From Leptolyngbya sp. KIOST-1 (GTDB taxonomy: Bacteria; Cyanobacteriota; Cyanobacteriia; Phormidesmidales; Phormidesmidaceae), in contig NZ_JQFA01000002.1 of assembly GCF_000763385.1 (NCBI RefSeq), positions 2,604,001 to 2,668,000 on the forward strand: 64,000 bases of DNA, given 5' to 3'. A program made the translations under genes and the position numbers. Of the stretch, positions 26,630 through 34,794 are shown piece by piece (within the stretch, counting starts at the first letter, position 1; each line of letters opens with the position of its first letter). The notes below the pieces were generated by a model. The model saw nothing but the letters and a program-made list of their open reading frames with translations. It was not told where the DNA came from and searched no databases.

Positions 26630-27256
26630 ATGTCGCTCTCCCTCTCCCTCTGGAACGCCAACGCCGATCTGGCCCAGGCCTGTCTACAGCACCCCTTTGT
26701 GCAGGGCCTGGGCGTCGGCACCCTGGCCGTTGAAACCTTTGCCTACTACGTCGGTCAGGACGCCTTTTTCCTTGAAGCCTTTGCCCGGGCCTACAGCATT
26801 GCTGCCGCCAAAGCGGCTACCTGGGAAGCGTTTCAGGTGTTTCACCAGCTTGCGGATGGGGTACTGGCCGAGCTCAATTTGCACGGCAGCTATGCCAAGG
26901 AATGGGGCGTGGAGTTGACCTCGGTGTCCCCCGGTGCCGCCACCCGCCGCTACACCGATTTTTTGCTCAGCACCGCCTGGGGGCAACCCCCAGGGGCAAC
27001 GGCGATCGCTATGGCCCCCTGCATGCGGCTCTATGCCTTTTTGGGGCAGTCTCTGGCCCAGCTGGAGCCGCCGCCCCACCGCTACAGCGCCTGGATCGAG
27101 ACCTACAGCAGCGACCAGTTTGAGCCCCTGGCCGCTCAACTGGAGGCGCTGATCGATGAGCAGGCTGTCGATACCCCCAGCCATCGGGCCGCCTACCGCT
27201 ACGCGATGGAGTGCGAACTCGCCTTTTTTGAAGCCGCCTGGCAGGAAAACGCCTGA
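26630..27256 (+). CDS. tenA: TenA-family thiaminase II, TenA_C type
   Basis: A 208-residue TENA/THI-4 protein that keeps the catalytic Cys at residue 131 (AIAMAPCMRLYAFLGQSLA). This corresponds to the active-site Cys of Bacillus TenA, which hydrolyses aminopyrimidine products of thiamin breakdown for reuse. Other family features are YYVGQDAFFLEAFARAYSIA near residue 40 and the C-terminal YRYAMECELAFFEAAW with the catalytic Glu. Together with the Cys-less paralog at 18.9 kb, the window encodes both known TenA classes. No other thi genes are adjacent. It converges on a phosphoribosyltransferase gene, 4 bp between stop codons. Confidence 0.9.
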   Translation: MSLSLSLWNANADLAQACLQHPFVQGLGVGTLAVETFAYYVGQDAFFLEAFARAYSIAAAKAATWEAFQVFHQLADGVLAELNLHGSYAKEWGVELTSVSPGAATRRYTDFLLSTAWGQPPGATAIAMAPCMRLYAFLGQSLAQLEPPPHRYSAWIETYSSDQFEPLAAQLEALIDEQAVDTPSHRAAYRYAMECELAFFEAAWQENA

Positions 27257-27260
27257 GGCC

Positions 27261-27920
27261 TCAGCCCGAACAACTCAGGAGGTGGCGAACATCGTCGTCG
27301 CTGGTTTGGGAAAAGTCCTGGTACCAGTAGCCGATCGCACGCAGCGTTGGCGGCATGACCACACACACGACCTCATCCACCATCAGGCTCAACTCCTGGC
27401 ACAGGGCCGGGGCGGCCACCGGGGCGGCCACAATTAGCCGGGCTGGTCCTTGGGGCTGGATCACGGAAACGGCGGCCCGCATGGTAGCCCCGGTGGCGAT
27501 GCCGTCATCGACCAGAATAACGGTGCGATCGCGGATGGAGGGCGACGGTCGATCGCCCCGGTAGGCGCGATCGCGGCGCTGTAGCTCCTCCAGTTCTCGG
27601 GCCGCGATCGCGTCAATGGCGGCGGCAGAAATCCCCATCCCCTTCACCACATCGTCGTTCAACACGCGCACTCCGCCCGAGGCGATCGCCCCCAGGGCCA
27701 GTTCCTTATGGTCTGGCACCCCCAGCTTGCGCACCAGGCAGATATCCAGGGGAGCCTGAAGGGCCTGGGCCACCGGGTAGGCCACGGGCACGCCGCCCCT
27801 GGGCAGGCCCAGCACCAGCAGATTTGGGCACTGGGCATAGCCTTTGAGCCGATCAGCCAGCTGTTGTCCGGCGTCGGCACGGTCTTGAAACCGCCTATCG
27901 TGGGCAACCGTGTTGAGCAT
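27261..27920 (-). CDS. Phosphoribosyltransferase-domain protein
   Basis: A 219-residue type I phosphoribosyltransferase. The PRPP loop is VILVDDGIATGATMRAA near residue 135, LGLPRGGVPVAYPVA near residue 38 is the other conserved loop, and the hood contains RKLGVPDHKELALGAIASGG. Proteins of this form often occur beside Hsp20 or hydrolase genes in stress-related clusters, and the remnant of an hsp20 gene lies directly upstream here. The base or other substrate is unknown. A good AGGAGG ribosome site stands just before the ATG at 27920. Confidence 0.85.
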   Translation of the reverse strand: MLNTVAHDRRFQDRADAGQQLADRLKGYAQCPNLLVLGLPRGGVPVAYPVAQALQAPLDICLVRKLGVPDHKELALGAIASGGVRVLNDDVVKGMGISAAAIDAIAARELEELQRRDRAYRGDRPSPSIRDRTVILVDDGIATGATMRAAVSVIQPQGPARLIVAAPVAAPALCQELSLMVDEVVCVVMPPTLRAIGYWYQDFSQTSDDDVRHLLSCSG

Positions 27921-27934
27921 TTCACCTCCTGAAT

Positions 27935-27970
27935 GGGTAAGAGAGCGGGCGATCGCGGGCTCTCTTACCC
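27935..27970 (-). terminator. Strong hairpin upstream of the phosphoribosyltransferase gene
   Basis: GGGTAAGAGAGC (27935-27946) and GCTCTCTTACCC (27959-27970) form a perfect 12-bp stem. It lies between the hsp20 remnant and the next gene on the minus strand. No T-run follows, so it may be a processing or attenuation hairpin rather than a full terminator. Confidence 0.5.
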
Positions 27971-27976
27971 TACGGT

Positions 27977-28063
27977 CTATTGGGTTTCGACTTTGACGAC
28001 CCGCTGCGGCTTGCTTACCAGTTTGGGCATAGTCAAATCCACCATGCCGTTTTTACAGTCAAC
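27977..28063 (-). pseudogene. C-terminal remnant of an Hsp20 small heat-shock protein gene
   Basis: On the minus strand, the frame ending at the stop codon 27979-27977 reads CKNGMVDLTMPKL, then VSKPQRVVKVETQ. This matches the end of the alpha-crystallin domain (the 'NG.L.LT.PK' strand) and tail of Hsp20 proteins. The frame is closed by a stop codon upstream at about 28064-28066, and no further Hsp20 sequence is seen before the IS element. It is therefore a short fossil of a gene that was deleted or disrupted. Confidence 0.7.
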
Positions 28064-28242
28064 CTATACATAGTCGGTTTAAATCCAAGTCGACAGCGGA
28101 ATTGTGCGTTCAAACACCCCCTAGCGAAATTTTGAGCGCATAGACCACTATCGGTTTGCTTAGATTCCGACTTGCGATCGTCTTCGATCCAAACCGATGA
28201 TTCTGTCACCTGACCTCCTAGTACTCTGAGGCGAAAGTAGAT

Positions 28243-28364
28243 GGCTCTTCCGGATCTGTGGTTGAAAGTGTGCTGGCTGATACATTTTACTTTCCCTGCA
28301 TTCGCTGAAAGCCTTGCTGCGCCTGAATATTAGCCGAGCTTATCACCCTGAACCCGGAAGAGCC
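28243..28364. mobile_element. 122-bp ISL3-like MITE, copy 1 (nested in the IS630 element)
   Basis: The ends GGCTCTTCCGG and CCGGAAGAGCC are 11-bp perfect inverted repeats of the GGCTCTTC type seen at ISL3-family termini. The 8-bp target duplication AAGTAGAT stands on both sides (28235-28242 and 28365-28372). It differs from copy 2 by one base in 122. It encodes nothing and must have been moved by a transposase elsewhere. Confidence 0.9.
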
Positions 28365-28410
28365 AAGTAGATCTACTATTTAAGGGTAGAGCGCACGGAA
28401 CTGAGTTGCC

Positions 28411-28989
28411 ATGCCAAGACTTGCCGCTCCTCCCATCACGCTAACGACCGATGAACAGACGGGCCTAGAGAAAATCGCTCGGCGACCGAGCACAGCCCAG
28501 CAGATTGCGCTGCGAGCGTCCATCATCTTGCGTGCCGCTCAAGGTGCCAGTCATGGCGAGATTGCTCGGGAACTCGGGATTACCAAAGATACGAGTCGTC
28601 TCTGGCGCAGTCGGTGGCTAGAGCTGAGTGCCCGTGAGTTACCCATCGAAGATCGACTCCAGGATGCGCCTCGAGCGGGGTGCCCGCCGACGTTCACGTT
28701 GGAGCAAATCACGCAACTCTATGCCCTGGCCTGCGCCCCGCCTGAGCAGTATGGTCGCCCCATCAGCCATTGGACGGGTTGCGAGTTGGCCGATGAGATG
28801 ATGAAGCAGGGCATTGTCGACACCATCAGCCCCCGTCACGTCGGGCGATTGTTAGCTGAAGCCGAACTTAAACCCCACCAGACTCGCTACTGGCTCCATC
28901 CCCCCCGGATCCTGAGTTCGCCGCCAAAGTTACCGACATCTGCGGTGTCTATCAGCAGGCCAGGGCGCGCAGCGAGCACGGTGAGTTGA
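28411..28989 (+). CDS. IS630-family transposase, N-terminal part (orfA)
   Basis: Frame A carries the DNA-binding half: a helix-turn-helix (GEIARELGITKDTSRLWRSRW, about residues 50-70) and a second helical domain resembling the usual winged-helix region (PRHVGRLLAEAELKPHQTRYWLHP). The last codons after RYWLHPP are out of frame and not conserved. True continuity is with frame B, entered by a -1 slip at seven C residues (28900-28906), so after codon 165 the ribosome would continue as PDPEFAAKVTDICGVYQQAR. Confidence 0.85.
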   Translation: MPRLAAPPITLTTDEQTGLEKIARRPSTAQQIALRASIILRAAQGASHGEIARELGITKDTSRLWRSRWLELSARELPIEDRLQDAPRAGCPPTFTLEQITQLYALACAPPEQYGRPISHWTGCELADEMMKQGIVDTISPRHVGRLLAEAELKPHQTRYWLHPPRILSSPPKLPTSAVSISRPGRAASTVS

Positions 28990-29612
28990 CCTACAGCCTC
29001 GACGAGATGACCGGTATTCAAGCCCTAGAACGGGCGATGCCGAATCTGGACATGAAGCCGGGACGCTGTGAAAAGGTGGAGTTTGAGTACATTCGTCATG
29101 GCACCCAGGCCTTAATCGCCACGCTGAATGTCGCGACCGGCCAGATTGACCAAGCCAGTGTCGGGGACACCCGAACCGAGGCTGATTTAGAGGCTCATCT
29201 CAGAGCCCTCCTGGGCCCAGCACCCAGCGCTCCCAAAATTCATCTCGTTATGGATTGTCTCAATACTCATCAATCCGAGGCCTTGGTGCGCGTAGTGGCT
29301 GAACTTGAACCTGAACCCCTTGAGCTAGGCGAAAAGGGTAAGTCCGGCATTCTGGCCTCAATGGCCACTCGCGCTGATTTTTTGAAAGACCCTTCTCATC
29401 GCCTGGTCGTGCATTTCACGCCTAAACATTCGTCCTGGCTCAATCAAATTGAAGTTTGGTTTAGCATCCTGGTGAGCAAACTCCTACGCCGTTCCAACTT
29501 CACCAGTCAGGCTGACCTCAAAGCTAAAATCCTCGCCTTTGTGGACTACTACAATCGCACCTTGGCCAAGCCCTTTAAGTGGAATTACACCGGTAAACCC
29601 TTAGTCTCGTGA
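28986..29612 (+). CDS. IS630-family transposase, catalytic part (orfB)
   Basis: Frame B carries the DDE domain of IS630/Tc1 type: first Asp in YSLDEMTGIQALE, second Asp in HLVMDCLNTHQ, and the Glu in SSWLNQIEVWFSILVSKLL. The frame has no good start of its own (TTG at 28986), and conserved sequence begins further upstream at about 28905, inside orfA. With the -1 shift the fused protein would be about 400 residues. The catalytic residues look intact, so the element could be active if the shift occurs. Confidence 0.88.
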   Translation: MTYSLDEMTGIQALERAMPNLDMKPGRCEKVEFEYIRHGTQALIATLNVATGQIDQASVGDTRTEADLEAHLRALLGPAPSAPKIHLVMDCLNTHQSEALVRVVAELEPEPLELGEKGKSGILASMATRADFLKDPSHRLVVHFTPKHSSWLNQIEVWFSILVSKLLRRSNFTSQADLKAKILAFVDYYNRTLAKPFKWNYTGKPLVS

Positions 29613-29649
29613 ATGATAGACTTAGTTCTGCCTCAGAGTACTAGAAACT

Positions 29650-31212
29650 TCAAATGGCTGACAAATAGTAAATATGGAAATAATTAAAATCCTCAACTAT
29701 ATAGTCTATTTTATATGCATCAGAAATTTTTTCTTCGAGGGGAAATTCTGCCTCCAAAAAATGCTTCCGATTAACAACCAATATAATTTTTTTTGAGTCA
29801 TTAGCTACTGAAGACAAACTTTTTAACCAATAATCATCTCCTGACAACATTTTCCAAGCAACTTCGTGACCATCTATTGTTTCAAAATCGCCATAGTATC
29901 TGATCAATTTAGTAGAGCCAAAAAGCAATACAGATGGACTACCAGAAACTCGATTTTCAATCAAATAACGAACAACGGATCGGTAATCATCTCGCCAATA
30001 GCTCTGATCGAAGTAATAATTGGAAACGGAATATAAATTTAGAAATATGAAAAACAGGATTGATAACCTAGCTATCGCCTTGTAAAGGGGTCTAACTTTT
30101 CCAATCAGGAATGGGCCATGCAATAACGATGGCAAAATCATGGCTAGAGGCAACCAGAGGTAGTAGGCATGCCTTGGAACCAAATTCATCTTTGTAATTA
30201 GAGCCATAACTATTGCCAAGACAAAAGAGGTAACTGCAAGACAAATAAAGAAGCAATCCAGCCGGAAAATTTTGCTCCTAAAGTCACGCTGAAGAAACAG
30301 CCTTATAATAAGCAGAAAAATTACAGAAACAACAGCGATAAATATCAAAAGAACTGGCCAGCTCCCTAAAACCACTGCCAGCTTATCATCTCCTCTCAAC
30401 TGCTCTTGCGATGGTCCATAAGTAGTGCCAACTAAAATCCCGTAAATCACAAAAGCTGCATTGTAAATAATAGGAAAACCGAACCTCGATATATTAACGG
30501 TTGATGGATTTGCATCAGCAGGCAAAGTCAGGAAATAAACTATTGGAAACAAACAAAAAATCGCAGTAGGCAACCACCATTGAATCCAGTGCCTCCACTT
30601 CCTAAAAATTAATAAATGCGAAAAGCTTAATGATGCAGTAAACACAATAGACTGAACACTGCAGAACAAACCAATTGAAGAAATGATTGCAAAAAAGAAC
30701 CTTGATAAAGGTTTTTTAGATGAATCCGCGTCCAAAACTTCACTGAATATACAAAGCTGTAGCGATGCAATAAAAATCAACAAGGAATAGTTTCTCGCCT
30801 CTTGACTGTAGCCAATCAAAAAGGAACTAAAAACCAGAATAAAAAGAGTCCATATGCTGTGGTTTTTACCATACAAGCGCCTAGCAAGGCCATATAACAT
30901 GGGCAACACTAAAAAACCTAGAATTGCCGAGAACCCCCTTAAAACAAACTCCGAATCTCCCAAAAATAGGCGTATAACATACAAGAAAACATAATACAAA
31001 GGCTGAAAAATATCACTGTGCGGCAAATTCCTTAATCTTGTAATAAGTTCGACGAACGAAGAAGCTTCAATATTGTCAAGAGTCAAGCCTTCATCAAACC
31101 AAAGACTTTGGTTTGTCAACAGAAAAAAACGCAGAAAAAACCCGATAAAGAAGAGATAGAAAAGTTTTGCCAAGTCGCTACTTAATGTCTTTCGAGATAT
31201 AAATTTGATCAT
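29650..31212 (-). CDS. GT-C membrane glycosyltransferase (family 39-like)
   Basis: A 520-residue polytopic membrane protein with about 11-13 helices. The first outer loop has the GT39/ArnT-type signature LWFDEGLTLDN (acidic pair near residue 40) and HSDIFQPLYYVFLY. Later come YGLARRLYGKNHS and SQEARNYSLLIF, as in 'dolichyl-phosphate-mannose-protein mannosyltransferase'-like bacterial enzymes. Such proteins use polyprenyl-phosphate sugars on the outer membrane face. The gene is markedly AT-rich compared with its surroundings, a sign of transfer. It is the last gene of the minus-strand cluster with the UbiA-type phosphoribosyltransferase, so the donor could be a lipid-linked pentose; donor and acceptor are both inferred. 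Confidence 0.8.
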   Translation of the reverse strand: MIKFISRKTLSSDLAKLFYLFFIGFFLRFFLLTNQSLWFDEGLTLDNIEASSFVELITRLRNLPHSDIFQPLYYVFLYVIRLFLGDSEFVLRGFSAILGFLVLPMLYGLARRLYGKNHSIWTLFILVFSSFLIGYSQEARNYSLLIFIASLQLCIFSEVLDADSSKKPLSRFFFAIISSIGLFCSVQSIVFTASLSFSHLLIFRKWRHWIQWWLPTAIFCLFPIVYFLTLPADANPSTVNISRFGFPIIYNAAFVIYGILVGTTYGPSQEQLRGDDKLAVVLGSWPVLLIFIAVVSVIFLLIIRLFLQRDFRSKIFRLDCFFICLAVTSFVLAIVMALITKMNLVPRHAYYLWLPLAMILPSLLHGPFLIGKVRPLYKAIARLSILFFIFLNLYSVSNYYFDQSYWRDDYRSVVRYLIENRVSGSPSVLLFGSTKLIRYYGDFETIDGHEVAWKMLSGDDYWLKSLSSVANDSKKIILVVNRKHFLEAEFPLEEKISDAYKIDYIVEDFNYFHIYYLSAI

Positions 31213-31291
31213 GATTTCAAACCTTCTTAATCAATAAATAGTACAAAACAAAATACTAAGGCCGATTTACCGTACAAATTTAAGGCTTAAG

Positions 31292-31413
31292 GGCTCTTCC
31301 GGATCTGTGGTTGAAAGTGTGCTGGCTGATACATTTTACTTTCCCTGCATTCTCTGAAAGCCTTGCTGCGCCTGAATATTAGCCGAGCTTATCACCCTGA
31401 ACCCGGAAGAGCC
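31292..31413. mobile_element. 122-bp ISL3-like MITE, copy 2
   Basis: It has the same terminal repeats GGCTCTTCCGG/CCGGAAGAGCC and the same length as the copy at 28243-28364, with a single base difference. Its own 8-bp target duplication GGCTTAAG flanks it at 31284-31291 and 31414-31421. It fills most of the gap between the glycosyltransferase gene and the small-transporter gene and could affect read-through between them. Confidence 0.9.
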
Positions 31414-31470
31414 GGCTTAAGCAGCCTCCCAAAATCTAATTTGTGAAATTAATTCTATTAGCTACAGCAT

Positions 31471-31806
31471 TCAATTCTTTGCAAAAGCAATAGCCCAGAT
31501 GCCACTTAGCATAAGGCCAATTCCAAGCCAGGCAGTTATCCCGACTTTTTCTTGAAAAAACGCAGCTCCAAAAACAGTGGTAGAGATCACCGTCAAACCA
31601 ATTACCAAGGGGTAGGCCACAGATAGATTCACTTTACTCAACACTAAAATATACATTAAGGTGCTGATGCCGTATGCTAAAACTCCGCCCAGCAAGTATA
31701 TGTTTGGCAGAGTCTTACCAGATCCCATCTTGAGTAAGACTTGTGCAAAAGTATTCAAACCGACAGTAGAAGTTATTAGAACACCAAATATCAATGGATT
31801 AGTCAT
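31471..31806 (-). CDS. Small four-helix transporter, SMR/EamA-like
   Basis: A 111-residue protein with four hydrophobic helices, the size of an SMR or ArnE/ArnF subunit. Visible segments are GVLITSTVGLNTFAQVLLKMG, LLGGVLAYGISTLMYILVL, VAYPLVIGLTVISTTVFGAAFFQEKVG and LGIGLMLSGIWAIAFAKN. 'SVAYPLV.GLTVISTT.FG..FF.EK' is the EamA/SMR pattern. Small proteins of this type can flip undecaprenyl-phosphate-linked sugars (ArnEF) or act as exporters. Its position between a prenyl-phosphate pentosyl enzyme and a GT-C transferase suggests a flippase; this is inference. It is AT-rich like the next gene. Confidence 0.75.
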   Translation of the reverse strand: MTNPLIFGVLITSTVGLNTFAQVLLKMGSGKTLPNIYLLGGVLAYGISTLMYILVLSKVNLSVAYPLVIGLTVISTTVFGAAFFQEKVGITAWLGIGLMLSGIWAIAFAKN

Positions 31807-31827
31807 TGGTATACAATCAATTAAAAA

Positions 31828-32355
31828 TTAAGGGTAAAGATATTCGCAGTCTGCCAACCAAAGCTCTTCAGTATTAAGGTATGGAACCTGTACCCATTTA
31901 CCAAGAATTTTTTCCCACCAACGGGGCGGATGAGGAAGGCTCGCCACTTGAACACAAGAACAGCCCACTAGTATTGAACCTAAAACATCGGTGTGAAAAC
32001 TATCACCAATGACAACCACCTGACGAGGTTTAAGTTGCATGATCTGAATCGCCCTGCGGAAACTCTTTGGGAATGGTTTACGGGCAGGACTAATAGCTGA
32101 AATATTTAAACGAGCAGACCAATAGTTAACTCGATATTTTCGCTTGCCGTTGGACAGCAAAAAGAGCTTCAGGCCCTCATGCTGAGCTTCACGAATCCAG
32201 TTTTCAGAATCAGGGGAAAGGTATACATCATCCTCAGAGACGATGGTATTGTCGAGGTCAAGAATGATGCCTCGAATACCTTTTTCCCTCAGCAGGCTTC
32301 GGTCAATCTGGCTGAGTTGTCTAATTCTGAGGGTATATCTCTCTGTTATTGGCAT
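31828..32355 (-). CDS. YqeG-type HAD phosphatase
   Basis: A 175-residue HAD-IIIA phosphatase of the YqeG family. Motif I is GIILDLDNTIVSEDD near residue 28, motif II Ser/Asn lies in LFLLSNGKRKYR, a conserved Lys lies in ARKPFPKSFRRA, and motif IV is VVIGDSFHTDVLGS. The substrate is unknown. Most cyanobacteria have a YqeG elsewhere as a household gene. Here it stands between the UbiA-type phosphoribosyltransferase and the small transporter, so it could be the phosphatase that removes the 5-phosphate from a prenyl-phosphoryl-ribose-5-phosphate. That would be a new role and needs proof. Confidence 0.82.
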   Translation of the reverse strand: MPITERYTLRIRQLSQIDRSLLREKGIRGIILDLDNTIVSEDDVYLSPDSENWIREAQHEGLKLFLLSNGKRKYRVNYWSARLNISAISPARKPFPKSFRRAIQIMQLKPRQVVVIGDSFHTDVLGSILVGCSCVQVASLPHPPRWWEKILGKWVQVPYLNTEELWLADCEYLYP

Positions 32356-32479
32356 GATCAGATCCCGTAAAGCTATGAATAGTAAAATCCATCAAATTTT
32401 TGCCTGTGATTAAGAGAGCTGAGTTGGCTTTTTCTCCTAACATCATCCAAACTAAAACTTCGAAGTTGATATCAAAACT

Positions 32480-33424
32480 TTAGGCTAAAATACCTTGATT
32501 GTGCAGTGAAAGCACGGCGATAACCATCATCAGCCAAGCAATTATGGTCAGCCCAAGAGGACGGTCGCTAAGCAAGATCTCTTCCGGTCGTTCAGTCTTG
32601 CCACCGTGGTCGGTACCATTAGCGCGACGACTAATTTCCTCTGGATCGCTGAGAAACTGGTAGCGGAATACTCCATAGGCAACAAAGGGAAGAGTAATCA
32701 TCATCCAAGGCGTAGTTGCCCCGTTAACAACAGGCCCAGCACTCCAGAGTGCGTAGGTCATAATAACTCCAGTAGTAACAGTACCTTCCATCCGGGTTAG
32801 CAAGGGCTGAGAATAACGGTAAAGGACACGGCGAGTTTGTCCCCCTTTGAGTTTTGTAACGCGAAGCTCTGCTTTGCGTTTTTCAATCCCCAAAAACAGG
32901 GCCAACATAGCGGTACAGAGCAAGAACCACACCGAAACCACAATTCCCGTAGCAGCGGCCCCAGCACACGCTCGGAGCACAAAGCCCGAGGCGATACAGA
33001 TTACATCAAGGATGACCGTATGCTTGAGCCGTAAGTTGTAGGCGACCTGCATTAGGGCATACGCTATCAGCGTGCTGCCGAGCAGCGGCTGGTGGAGCCA
33101 ACCAACGGCTACGGTTCCCACCAACAAAATTCCGGCCATAGTTAGGGCGGTAGGAATGCTTACCAAGCCTGCAGCAATTGGGCGCTTACACTTGGTAGGA
33201 TGACAACGATCTGATTGAACATCAGCGATGTCGTTAAGCAAGTAGAAGGCGCTAGAGAGGCCGCAGAAAAGTACAAAGGCTAGAAAAGATTGCAGCAAGG
33301 AAACAGGATCAAGCTGCAAGGAGAAAATAGGGGCTGCAAAAACAATTAAATTTTTTGTCCATTGCTTAGGACGTAACGCAAGCAAGTAGACCAACAAAGA
33401 TTTTTTTTCTTTAGTGAATAGCAT
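32480..33424 (-). CDS. Polyprenyl-phosphate phosphoribosyltransferase (UbiA family)
   Basis: About 314 residues, polytopic, of the UbiA superfamily branch that acts on PRPP instead of a prenyl acceptor ring. The first Asp-rich motif is LLNDIADVQSDRCHPTKCKR followed by PIAAG, the hallmark of decaprenylphosphate phosphoribosyltransferases such as mycobacterial Rv3806c. The second region is LDVICIASGFVLRACAGAAA followed by LFLGIEKRKAEL, which also fits. It would join the ribose-5-phosphate of PRPP to a polyprenyl phosphate. The PRPP synthetase gene lies 145 bp upstream on the same strand. I start at the ATG 33424 (MLFTKEKKS); the frame runs 25 codons further upstream. Confidence 0.88.
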   Translation of the reverse strand: MLFTKEKKSLLVYLLALRPKQWTKNLIVFAAPIFSLQLDPVSLLQSFLAFVLFCGLSSAFYLLNDIADVQSDRCHPTKCKRPIAAGLVSIPTALTMAGILLVGTVAVGWLHQPLLGSTLIAYALMQVAYNLRLKHTVILDVICIASGFVLRACAGAAATGIVVSVWFLLCTAMLALFLGIEKRKAELRVTKLKGGQTRRVLYRYSQPLLTRMEGTVTTGVIMTYALWSAGPVVNGATTPWMMITLPFVAYGVFRYQFLSDPEEISRRANGTDHGGKTERPEEILLSDRPLGLTIIAWLMMVIAVLSLHNQGILA

Positions 33425-33568
33425 ATTTTTGCTCCAAGCGTGTTTTACAATACAGCTAGTTATTGAATAAATAATGTCTACACAATTAAAAATAAGCATT
33501 TTATTTTTAATGCTGGTATTTCCTTAAAAATGTTGAGAAGAATCAAACATATGTTTAATTTTTAGCTC

Positions 33569-34564
33569 TTAAGGCGACTGAAGCATGCTGCTGACAGAAT
33601 ACTCCTTATGAATTCTGCGAATAGCTTCGCTTATCAGTTCGGCAACGGATAGAATTTTGAGTTGCTGAACTTCTTCTTGAGGGACTGGAATCGTATTAGT
33701 AACAATTATCTTCTCAAAAAAACCGTTTGAAATGCGATTGATTGCTGGCGGAGAAAAGATAGCGTGGGTAGCACAGGCATAGATCGTACTTGCCCCTGCC
33801 TCTTTGAGGGCGCGGGCACATTCTGTGATTGTGCTCGCCGTATCAATGATGTCGTCAATAATAACTGCCGTCTTACCATTTACTTCACCAATCACATTCA
33901 TAATATCGGCGCAATTGTGGTCCGGGCGACGTTTATCGATAATCGCAAGAGGTGCATCATTGAGGTGTTTGGCAAAGGCTCGGGCGCGAGCTACACCACC
34001 AATATCAGGCGATACAATCACAACGTCATCGATTTCCTTAGTCCGTAGATAGCGATGCAGAACGGGAGCAGCAAAAATGTGATCTACTGGAATGTCAAAG
34101 TAGCCTTGGGTTTGGGCTGAGTGTAAATCCATGGCAAGAATGCGGTGAGCCCCAGCTTGTGTAATTAAATTAGCCGTTAGCTTGGCCGTAATTGACTCGC
34201 GCCCTGCAGTTTTTCGATCGGCTCGAGAATAGCCGTAGTAGGGAATGACAGCGGTAATCTGCCGAGCCGATGCCCGCCGACAAGCATCGATCATGATTAA
34301 GAGTTCGAGCAGGTGATCGTTGACCGGTTGACAGGTGGGCTGCATCAGGTAAACATCACAGCCACGAATGGATTCTTGAAATTGAACATAAATTTCACCA
34401 TCGGCGAAACGCTTGCGCACCATTAACCCTAATTCGCAATGTAGGTATTGGGCCACTTCTTGAGCCAAACCAGGGTTAGCAGAACCAGAGAAAATACGGA
34501 GTCTGCTGGGCAAGTTTCGACTTAACCCCTCAGGTTTTTGAGCCAGAATCACAGGGGAAAGCAT
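33569..34564 (-). CDS. prs: Ribose-phosphate pyrophosphokinase (PRPP synthetase)
   Basis: A 331-residue class I PRPP synthetase that makes PRPP from ribose-5-phosphate and ATP. Clear motifs are RIFSGSANPGLAQEVA near residue 25, FADGEIYVQFQESIRGCDVY, AVIPYYGYSRADRK with the flexible catalytic region, the PRPP-binding loop VIIDDIIDTASTI near residue 230, and RRPDHNC. PRPP feeds purine, pyrimidine, His and Trp synthesis, and here also the neighbouring polyprenyl-phosphate phosphoribosyltransferase. Length and sequence are normal for cyanobacteria, so this is probably the housekeeping gene next to which the accessory cluster lies. Confidence 0.95.
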   Translation of the reverse strand: MLSPVILAQKPEGLSRNLPSRLRIFSGSANPGLAQEVAQYLHCELGLMVRKRFADGEIYVQFQESIRGCDVYLMQPTCQPVNDHLLELLIMIDACRRASARQITAVIPYYGYSRADRKTAGRESITAKLTANLITQAGAHRILAMDLHSAQTQGYFDIPVDHIFAAPVLHRYLRTKEIDDVVIVSPDIGGVARARAFAKHLNDAPLAIIDKRRPDHNCADIMNVIGEVNGKTAVIIDDIIDTASTITECARALKEAGASTIYACATHAIFSPPAINRISNGFFEKIIVTNTIPVPQEEVQQLKILSVAELISEAIRRIHKEYSVSSMLQSP

Positions 34565-34794
34565 GGGGGTTGTTAGGAAGAATTATGTTCTTGGATCTAA
34601 GCTACTCCAGGTAAGCTTGGGGCGGGCGCTCTGGCAGTGGGCTTTACTGAGGGCTCACGTTTTAATAAAGATACCTACCTTTAGGTAGATGGCGATTTGC
34701 TGGAGAAAGGTGCTCTCGTCTTGTATCAGCGACAGTTAGAACTCTTACAAGGACTCAATTGCCTACCATAGGGAAAACACACCAGGCTCACCCC

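Follow-up and report, generated by a model that had tools for sequence, protein, structure and literature searches.

A putative lipid-linked pentofuranose cassette beside a second PRPP synthetase gene in Leptolyngbya sp. KIOST-1

Which pentose would be loaded onto a lipid carrier, and by which steps, by the five minus-strand genes at positions 29650-34564 of the Leptolyngbya sp. KIOST-1 window (the whole stretch analysed, 64,000 nucleotides; positions refer to it unless another contig is named)? The original prediction, made from the sequence alone, assigned the genes to a phosphoribosyl pyrophosphate (PRPP) synthetase (Prs), a UbiA-family transferase, a HAD phosphatase, a small SMR/EamA-like membrane protein and a GT-C glycosyltransferase, and read them as a lipid-linked pentofuranose pathway. 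We confirmed all five open reading frames (ORFs) at these coordinates, and the products score above the cut-offs of the respective family models.

We consider it likely that these genes form a donor cassette gained by horizontal transfer, together with an exchangeable transferase, and serve to decorate a glycan outside the cytoplasmic membrane with a pentofuranose, D-ribofuranose being the most likely one. The second Prs (Prs2) would supply PRPP, from which the UbiA protein, a predicted polyprenyl-phosphate phosphoribosyltransferase (PPPRS), would load a polyprenyl phosphate; the HAD protein, of the YqeG type, would remove the 5'-phosphate to give polyprenyl-P-ribofuranose, the SMR protein would flip this to the periplasmic side and the GT-C protein would transfer ribose to a surface glycan or other acceptor. 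The families, key residues, a conserved gene triad, the second prs gene, the lack of a DprE1 match and the insertion are read from the sequences, and the enzymatic and transport activities, the sugar and the acceptor are predictions built on them. As far as sequence analysis reaches, the pathway reading remains the best supported one, and neither of the two tests set for it, the phylogeny of the UbiA protein and the conservation of the gene set, spoke against it.

The phosphoribosyltransferase and a second PRPP synthetase

The product of the UbiA-family gene (32480-33499, minus strand) scored 252 bits against NF008978 (cut-off 207) and 239.7 bits against NF008977 (cut-off 234), both curated for decaprenyl-phosphate phosphoribosyltransferase; a third equivalog model, NF008976, was below its cut-off (205.9 against 474). 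In the PDB, the mycobacterial phosphoribosyltransferase 8j8j is the nearest match in sequence (8j8j_D, E 1.9e-45). Residues 89-106 read NDIADVQSDRCHPTKCKR and are followed by PIAAG, and the motif residues are N89, D90, D93, D97, R208 and E211. The residues binding PRPP and Mg in Rv3806c have been defined (PMC10994848), and when their correspondence was counted by hand along the 8j8j alignment five of six were identical: Lys28, Asn73, Asp77, Gln135 and Lys143 match K49, N89, D93, Q151 and K159, and the sixth, Lys208, falls on R224. The spacing 89, 90, 93, 97, 208 and 211 is also that of N247, D248, D251, D255, R366 and E369, the residues probed by mutation in ORF15 of Citrobacter youngae (Kelly 2024; PMC11127046). 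By family and residues we therefore assign the protein as an Rv3806c-type PPPRS (EC 2.4.2.45), i.e. the ribose-5-phosphate-transferring type that the original prediction had proposed. Homologous proteins align only from about residue 23-37 of the window ORF onwards, so that translation probably starts at Met26 (about 33424) and the listed start would be 25 codons too early.

The UbiA superfamily also includes quinone, chlorophyll and other aromatic prenyltransferases, and weak matches to chlorophyll synthase, homogentisate phytyltransferase and heme O synthase models were obtained. These reached 20-24 bits only, far below cut-off. The genome has six UbiA-family matches in total. When 38 proteins were placed in a tree, that of the window clustered with PPPRS relatives and away from the other five (97/98), which sit on very long branches such that the tree shows little beyond this separation; among its neighbours are proteins whose genes adjoin those of DprE1 and DprE2. 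An aromatic prenyltransferase is thus extremely unlikely, and on model scores and tree position we rejected a quinone or chlorophyll enzyme.

The Prs protein (33569-34564, minus strand) scored 569.2 bits against NF002758 (cut-off 518), and the PRPP synthetase family, as originally predicted, stands. It is, however, not the housekeeping gene: another prs is present at G000:C2:2402942 of the same genome (G, C and L numbers are our identifiers for genomes, contigs and loci), and the cassette copy falls in a separate clade. All 26 genomes of the genus carry prs, 24 as a single copy; the window genome and G020 each possess an additional one, which adjoins the cassette UbiA gene. In a tree these cassette copies stand together (99/99; long branches flagged) in a clade apart from the 26 other copies of the genus, and are 82.5% identical to each other but 69-71% identical to the other copy in their own genome. 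The G+C content of prs2 is 47.5%, compared with 59.2% for the housekeeping copy. The neighbouring prs is hence a second, cassette-specific copy that travels with the cassette. A prs gene was also found 1.8 to 2.6 kb from UbiA in three of 60 non-cyanobacterial loci (L076, L090 and L101).

The YqeG-type phosphatase, the SMR protein and the conserved triad

Conservation was studied in the class with a sample of 388 genomes, taken evenly from a larger set, with thresholds of E 1e-20 for UbiA, E 1e-30 for DprE1 and at least 170 bits for the HAD set. This gave 68 UbiA loci in 66 genomes, with neighbourhoods of 9-10 kb or to the contig end, in which ORF calling relied on simple scripts and transmembrane segments on a crude hydropathy count. 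The hidden Markov models (HMMs) in these scripts were built from loci of the same analysis, so that their building members match by construction, and HAD fusions were for this reason checked with Pfam.

The HAD protein (31828-32355, minus strand) passes TIGR01668/YqeG (166.1 bits, cut-off 89.1) and PF09419 (PGP_phosphatase), and could be taken for a displaced housekeeping YqeG of the phosphatidylglycerophosphate phosphatase type in a chance neighbourhood. However, the genome has another YqeG, at C2:3544964, and the scores of the window HAD over the 388 genomes fall into two separate sets: 41 places in 39 genomes with at least 170 bits, and a lower set, with the next best score at 67.5 bits, which is the YqeG of most genomes (some match at E 1e-10 in 347 of 388). 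The cassette HAD is a YqeG subgroup distinct from the near-universal copy, and 37 of the 39 genomes that have it also have the UbiA protein. The housekeeping reading, already disfavoured, is therefore very unlikely, and we rejected it on the second copy and the two score sets. The HAD catalytic motifs are present by pattern in 37 of 38 cases, D33 being the predicted active-site residue of the window protein, and an AlphaFold2 model had a mean predicted local distance difference test (pLDDT) score of 89.1. Foldseek gave general matches to it, including capless KdsC- and GmhB-type phosphatases (TM about 0.53), which are compatible with a phosphatase and assign no substrate.

In all 36 loci holding both genes the HAD gene is adjacent to UbiA on the same strand, with a median gap of 47 bases, and in 33 of these an SMR gene follows (in G052 with other ORFs between HAD and SMR). 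Anabaena subtropica FACHB-260 (L041) is one cyanobacterium with the triad. Among the best 80 of 565 confirmed matches in named genomes, which partly overlap the sample, HAD was present in 14 of 20 photosynthetic-cyanobacterial loci, and two of the six lacking it end at a contig edge; in the other 60 loci HAD was found in none at E 1e-3 and DprE1 in six. Conservation of the gene set thus holds for the UbiA-HAD-SMR core, and Prs and this particular GT-C lie outside it. On one short contig (L195:282-4564) HAD and SMR genes follow rmlD-, rmlA- and rmlB-like genes (dTDP-rhamnose, by reading), with no UbiA gene on that contig.

The SMR protein (31471-31806, minus strand; 111 amino acids, with about four helices as judged from length alone) matches PF00893 with 32.1 bits (cut-off 23.7); a PDB sequence search with it gave no match. 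Its best NCBIfam models are those for ArnE (34.3 bits) and ArnF (32.0 bits), flippase subunits for 4-amino-4-deoxy-arabinose-P-undecaprenol of similar size. Both scores fall far short of the respective cut-offs (92 and 99 bits), however, and the window has one gene instead of a pair. As the third member of the triad it is our candidate for a polyprenyl-P-ribose flippase.

The type of pathway is already published. In C. youngae O1 and O2 PPPRS, HAD, flippase and GT-C proteins provide side-chain pentofuranoses, and the main text of that report calls the pathway widespread (PMC11127046). As there, a predicted PRPP-dependent PPPRS of the UbiA superfamily, in which the catalytic residues are kept, is encoded in the window together with a HAD phosphatase, a candidate membrane flippase and a predicted GT-C transferase. 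The phosphatase and flippase types differ: according to that text C. youngae has a PRP-type HAD domain fused to PPPRS, a MATE-family flippase and the founding transferase of GT136, whereas the window has a separate TIGR01668/YqeG-type HAD, an SMR-type protein in place of the MATE flippase and a PMT_2-like GT-C, and, unlike C. youngae O1/O2, a second prs. The window HAD gave no match to PF12710 at E 1e-3, and a profile from HAD-UbiA fusions found nothing in the window locus; that PF12710 stands in for the published PRP type is an assumption. With the mycobacterial decaprenylphosphoryl arabinose (DPA) pathway (Rv3806c, Rv3807c, DprE1/E2, Rv3789) the locus shares the PPPRS family (8j8j), the predicted use of PRPP and a small flippase candidate (called SMR-family in PMC11127046). 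It differs in that the search of the window genome gave no DprE1, and in the linked HAD, since according to the same source the 5'-phosphatase of mycobacteria has no relation to HAD PRPs.

Two proposed donor branches and the probable sugar

PPPRS was found in 66 and DprE1 in 22 of the 388 genomes. Among the 66, 36 have the cassette HAD only, 20 DprE1 only, one both and nine neither, and the single coincidence corresponds to a Fisher p of 4e-9, uncorrected for relatedness. DprE1 was thus not found in 38 of the 39 HAD genomes, and the exception, G047, has two separate PPPRS loci, one with the triad (L028) and one with a HAD-UbiA fusion, DprE1 and DprE2 (L034).

The original prediction had left two options, i.e. 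that the sugar stays ribose or that the epimerases are elsewhere, and had called for a genome search. This gave zero DprE1 matches at E 1e-30 in the window genome, with DprE2 not searched genome-wide; the six FAD_binding_4 proteins of this genome resemble, by reading, GlcD, GlcE, a D-lactate dehydrogenase and, in three cases, MurB. No epimerase ORF is present among the five window genes or in the G020 cassette. As no DprE1 was found, the donor sugar most likely stays ribose, the better of the two options: PPPRS and a phosphatase without an epimerase would be expected to yield polyprenyl-P-ribofuranose, by analogy with C. youngae O1, where ribofuranose is added without an epimerase (PMC11127046).

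The 21 DprE1 loci (e.g. L147, L161 and L185) provide the comparison. Their PPPRS proteins are homologous to that of the window (60-66% identity in five genomes, 51-53% in five and 34-38% in the rest), and the loci usually also encode a HAD phosphatase and membrane flippase candidates, with GT87 or other polytopic neighbours in some. Unlike the window locus, all of them encode DprE1 and nearly all also DprE2. The YqeG-type HAD is present in none of them; instead a PF12710 HAD is fused to UbiA in ten and to LPG_synthase_TM (PF03706) in seven (for example L161:3047-4672, L147:5645-7240, L178:9904-11514, L181:9557-11098 and L180:9173-10729). The latter fusion suggests coupled dephosphorylation and flipping. 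GtrA- or LPG-type proteins, the flippase candidates of this branch, are found in the same 17 of 21 loci as the fused HAD, as compared with one of 36 HAD loci.

Two genomes with neither YqeG-type HAD nor DprE1 (G078 and G253) encode a PF12710 HAD as a separate protein within the locus, and a HAD of some kind hence accompanies PPPRS in 55 of the 68 loci (36+10+7+2). The 13 lacking it are those of G001, G038, G083, G146 (second locus), G214, G226, G288, G298, G306, G319, G321, G327 and G372; in G288 the HAD is on another contig, G038 and G226 have a PF12710-HAD relative elsewhere in the genome, and for G298, G306, G319 and G321 the sequence read was short or ran into the end of a contig. The strongest argument for the window HAD as the 5'-phosphatase is that HADs of different subfamilies occupy the same place in both branches.

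The same donor route could nevertheless end in another sugar, if an epimerase that is encoded elsewhere or has escaped recognition acts on the ribose, and arabinose or xylose is transferred. In C. youngae O2 a single SDR epimerase (ORF13) converts undP-Ribf to undP-Xylf (PMC11127046), and SDR-epimerase-like genes (cluster c1), with a candidate role, are near the locus in seven genomes. Moreover, DprE1-linked and triad UbiA proteins are interleaved in the tree, and the branches have therefore switched. The missing DprE1, in the window genome and in nearly all other HAD genomes, and the absence of an epimerase ORF from both cassettes argue against it, the latter check covering linked genes and leaving outside unlinked SDR proteins of the genome, DprE2-like ones included. 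We consider transfer of an epimerised sugar unlikely and retain ribose.

Taken together, we lean towards two largely exclusive cyanobacterial branches of lipid-linked pentofuranose synthesis that share one PPPRS family: an arabinose branch with DprE1/E2, PF12710 HADs and GtrA/LPG-type flippases, and a ribose branch in the form of an exchangeable donor cassette comprising a YqeG-derived 5'-phosphatase of a kind not described before, an SMR flippase, sometimes its own PRPP synthetase, and a changing GT-C. Ribose and arabinose are reported among the sugars of cyanobacterial exopolysaccharides (PMC4390846). Searches of the open-licence literature gave no paper tying either to a lipid-linked donor pathway in cyanobacteria; within it, decaprenyl-phosphate phosphoribosyltransferase combined with cyanobacteria led only to another prenyltransferase, and nothing was found for DprE1/arabinose or pentofuranose with cyanobacteria. 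In the main text of PMC11127046 the string 'cyanobacteri' has zero occurrences, the supplement being outside this check.

Insertion, the changing transferase and implications

In G009 and G023 the counterparts of the TenA-like and phosphoribosyltransferase-domain genes (window 26630-27920) are immediate neighbours of the Cof-type HAD gene (window 34759) and no part of the cassette separates them, whereas the window has 6.8 kb there. These empty sites support that the block was inserted and horizontally acquired, as the AT-rich 3' half had suggested in the original prediction. The G+C content falls along the block, from 47.5% for prs2 and UbiA to 44.7% for HAD, 40.8% for SMR and 36.4% for GT-C, and the flanks have 60-65% (Cof 60.2 and PDA 63.1 on one side, TenA with the phosphoribosyltransferase-domain gene 64.8 on the other). 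In G020 the cassette, with another last gene, is found between the TenA-like and Cof genes. Across the genus (L233-L253) the interval corresponding to 27921-34758 is empty, holds the cassette or holds other small genes, some of which resemble, by reading, toxin-antitoxin pairs or a small heat-shock protein.

The GT-C protein (29650-31212, minus strand) passes PF13231 (29.0 bits, cut-off 26.1) and PF02366 (28.4, cut-off 22.7), the PMT_2 and PMT families, and a PDB sequence search with it gave a single weak match (E 0.063). It is our candidate for the outer-side transferase, but it could instead be an unrelated recent arrival using another donor, with ribose transferred by a GT-C encoded elsewhere and the donor half as described above. 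Its G+C content is below the 40.8-47.5% of the other cassette genes, it is separated from them by a miniature inverted-repeat transposable element (MITE) and abuts an IS630 element, and the last gene of the G020 cassette encodes a different polytopic protein. Set against this, a GT-C homologue (39.6% identity) is encoded directly upstream of PPPRS and SMR in a separate locus in G001, a relative of the last G020 protein adjoins the UbiA gene in G168, and among 16 other polytopic neighbours in non-DprE1 PPPRS loci seven pass the PMT_2 or GT87 cut-off, as might suit an exchangeable transferase. From the G020, G168 and G001 genes and the varied polytopic neighbours it follows that the donor part is stable and the transferase part changes among relatives. 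An unrelated GT-C is improbable, and we keep the exchangeable transferase as part of the pathway.

Several observations nevertheless weigh against the pathway as a whole or against its parts. A prs gene lies within 8 kb of UbiA at only two of the 68 loci, and the UbiA motif pattern is incomplete in five of them. SMR is absent from three of the 36 HAD loci (G089, with transposase pieces after HAD, G168 and G197), and HAD with SMR but no UbiA was seen in G049 and G271 (short contigs). Four of the 21 DprE1 loci (G038, G083, G319 and G327) have neither kind of HAD in the stretch read. In G001 and G214 PPPRS and SMR occur with no HAD in the locus and a housekeeping-type match only genome-wide, so that the pathway may do without the HAD, or another enzyme that escaped notice may stand in for it. 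A single-sequence structure of the GT-C was unusable (pLDDT 48.7), and nine of the 16 polytopic neighbours reach no PMT_2 or GT87 cut-off. Since the GT-C is unconserved, was apparently gained in a separate event and is set off by the MITE, its connection to this donor is the weakest part.

The MITE (31292-31413, minus strand, between SMR and GT-C and outside the pathway) is a 122-bp repeat with seven copies in the genome (98-100% identical), a second one in the window being at 28243-28364. Its ends are 11-bp terminal inverted repeats, GGCTCTTCCGG, with 8-bp target duplications that are perfect by eye in six of seven copies; it is a recently active MITE, presumably related to ISL3-type elements. 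The pair of copies was considered as a vehicle for the GT-C gene and rejected, each having its own 8-bp target duplication. One copy is inside the left end of the IS630-family element (28218-29644, plus strand, ends by eye; likewise outside the pathway), which ends 5 bases from the GT-C stop codon. Its transposase is encoded by two overlapping ORFs at 28411-29612 (PF13358 above cut-off, with matches to NF033545), which reflects frameshifting or decay.

Other genes recur near PPPRS. A polytopic family, c0 (17 genomes; L157:11280-12848, L145:11379-14684 and others), is found next to the triad; four members scanned reached no Pfam cut-off, with weak DUF6080, GH15 and LrgB matches, and c0 is by topology and position a transferase candidate and possibly a new GT-C family. 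A legume-lectin and GDSL-lipase protein (L167:6556-8712; cluster c3, six genomes) is encoded directly upstream of UbiA in several. An Rfam scan of the 64-kb window gave zero matches, and a promoter and terminator scan gave counts below the shuffle means (4 against 9.7 and 5 against 6.1).

For cyanobacteria, the two branches would mean that named gene sets predict which strains carry ribose and which carry arabinose on their surface, with phosphatase and flippase candidates of different families holding the same place in each. They would also give a subgroup of hypothetical YqeG phosphatases a testable role, and point to a duplicated PRPP synthetase gene that travels with a surface-glycan cassette.

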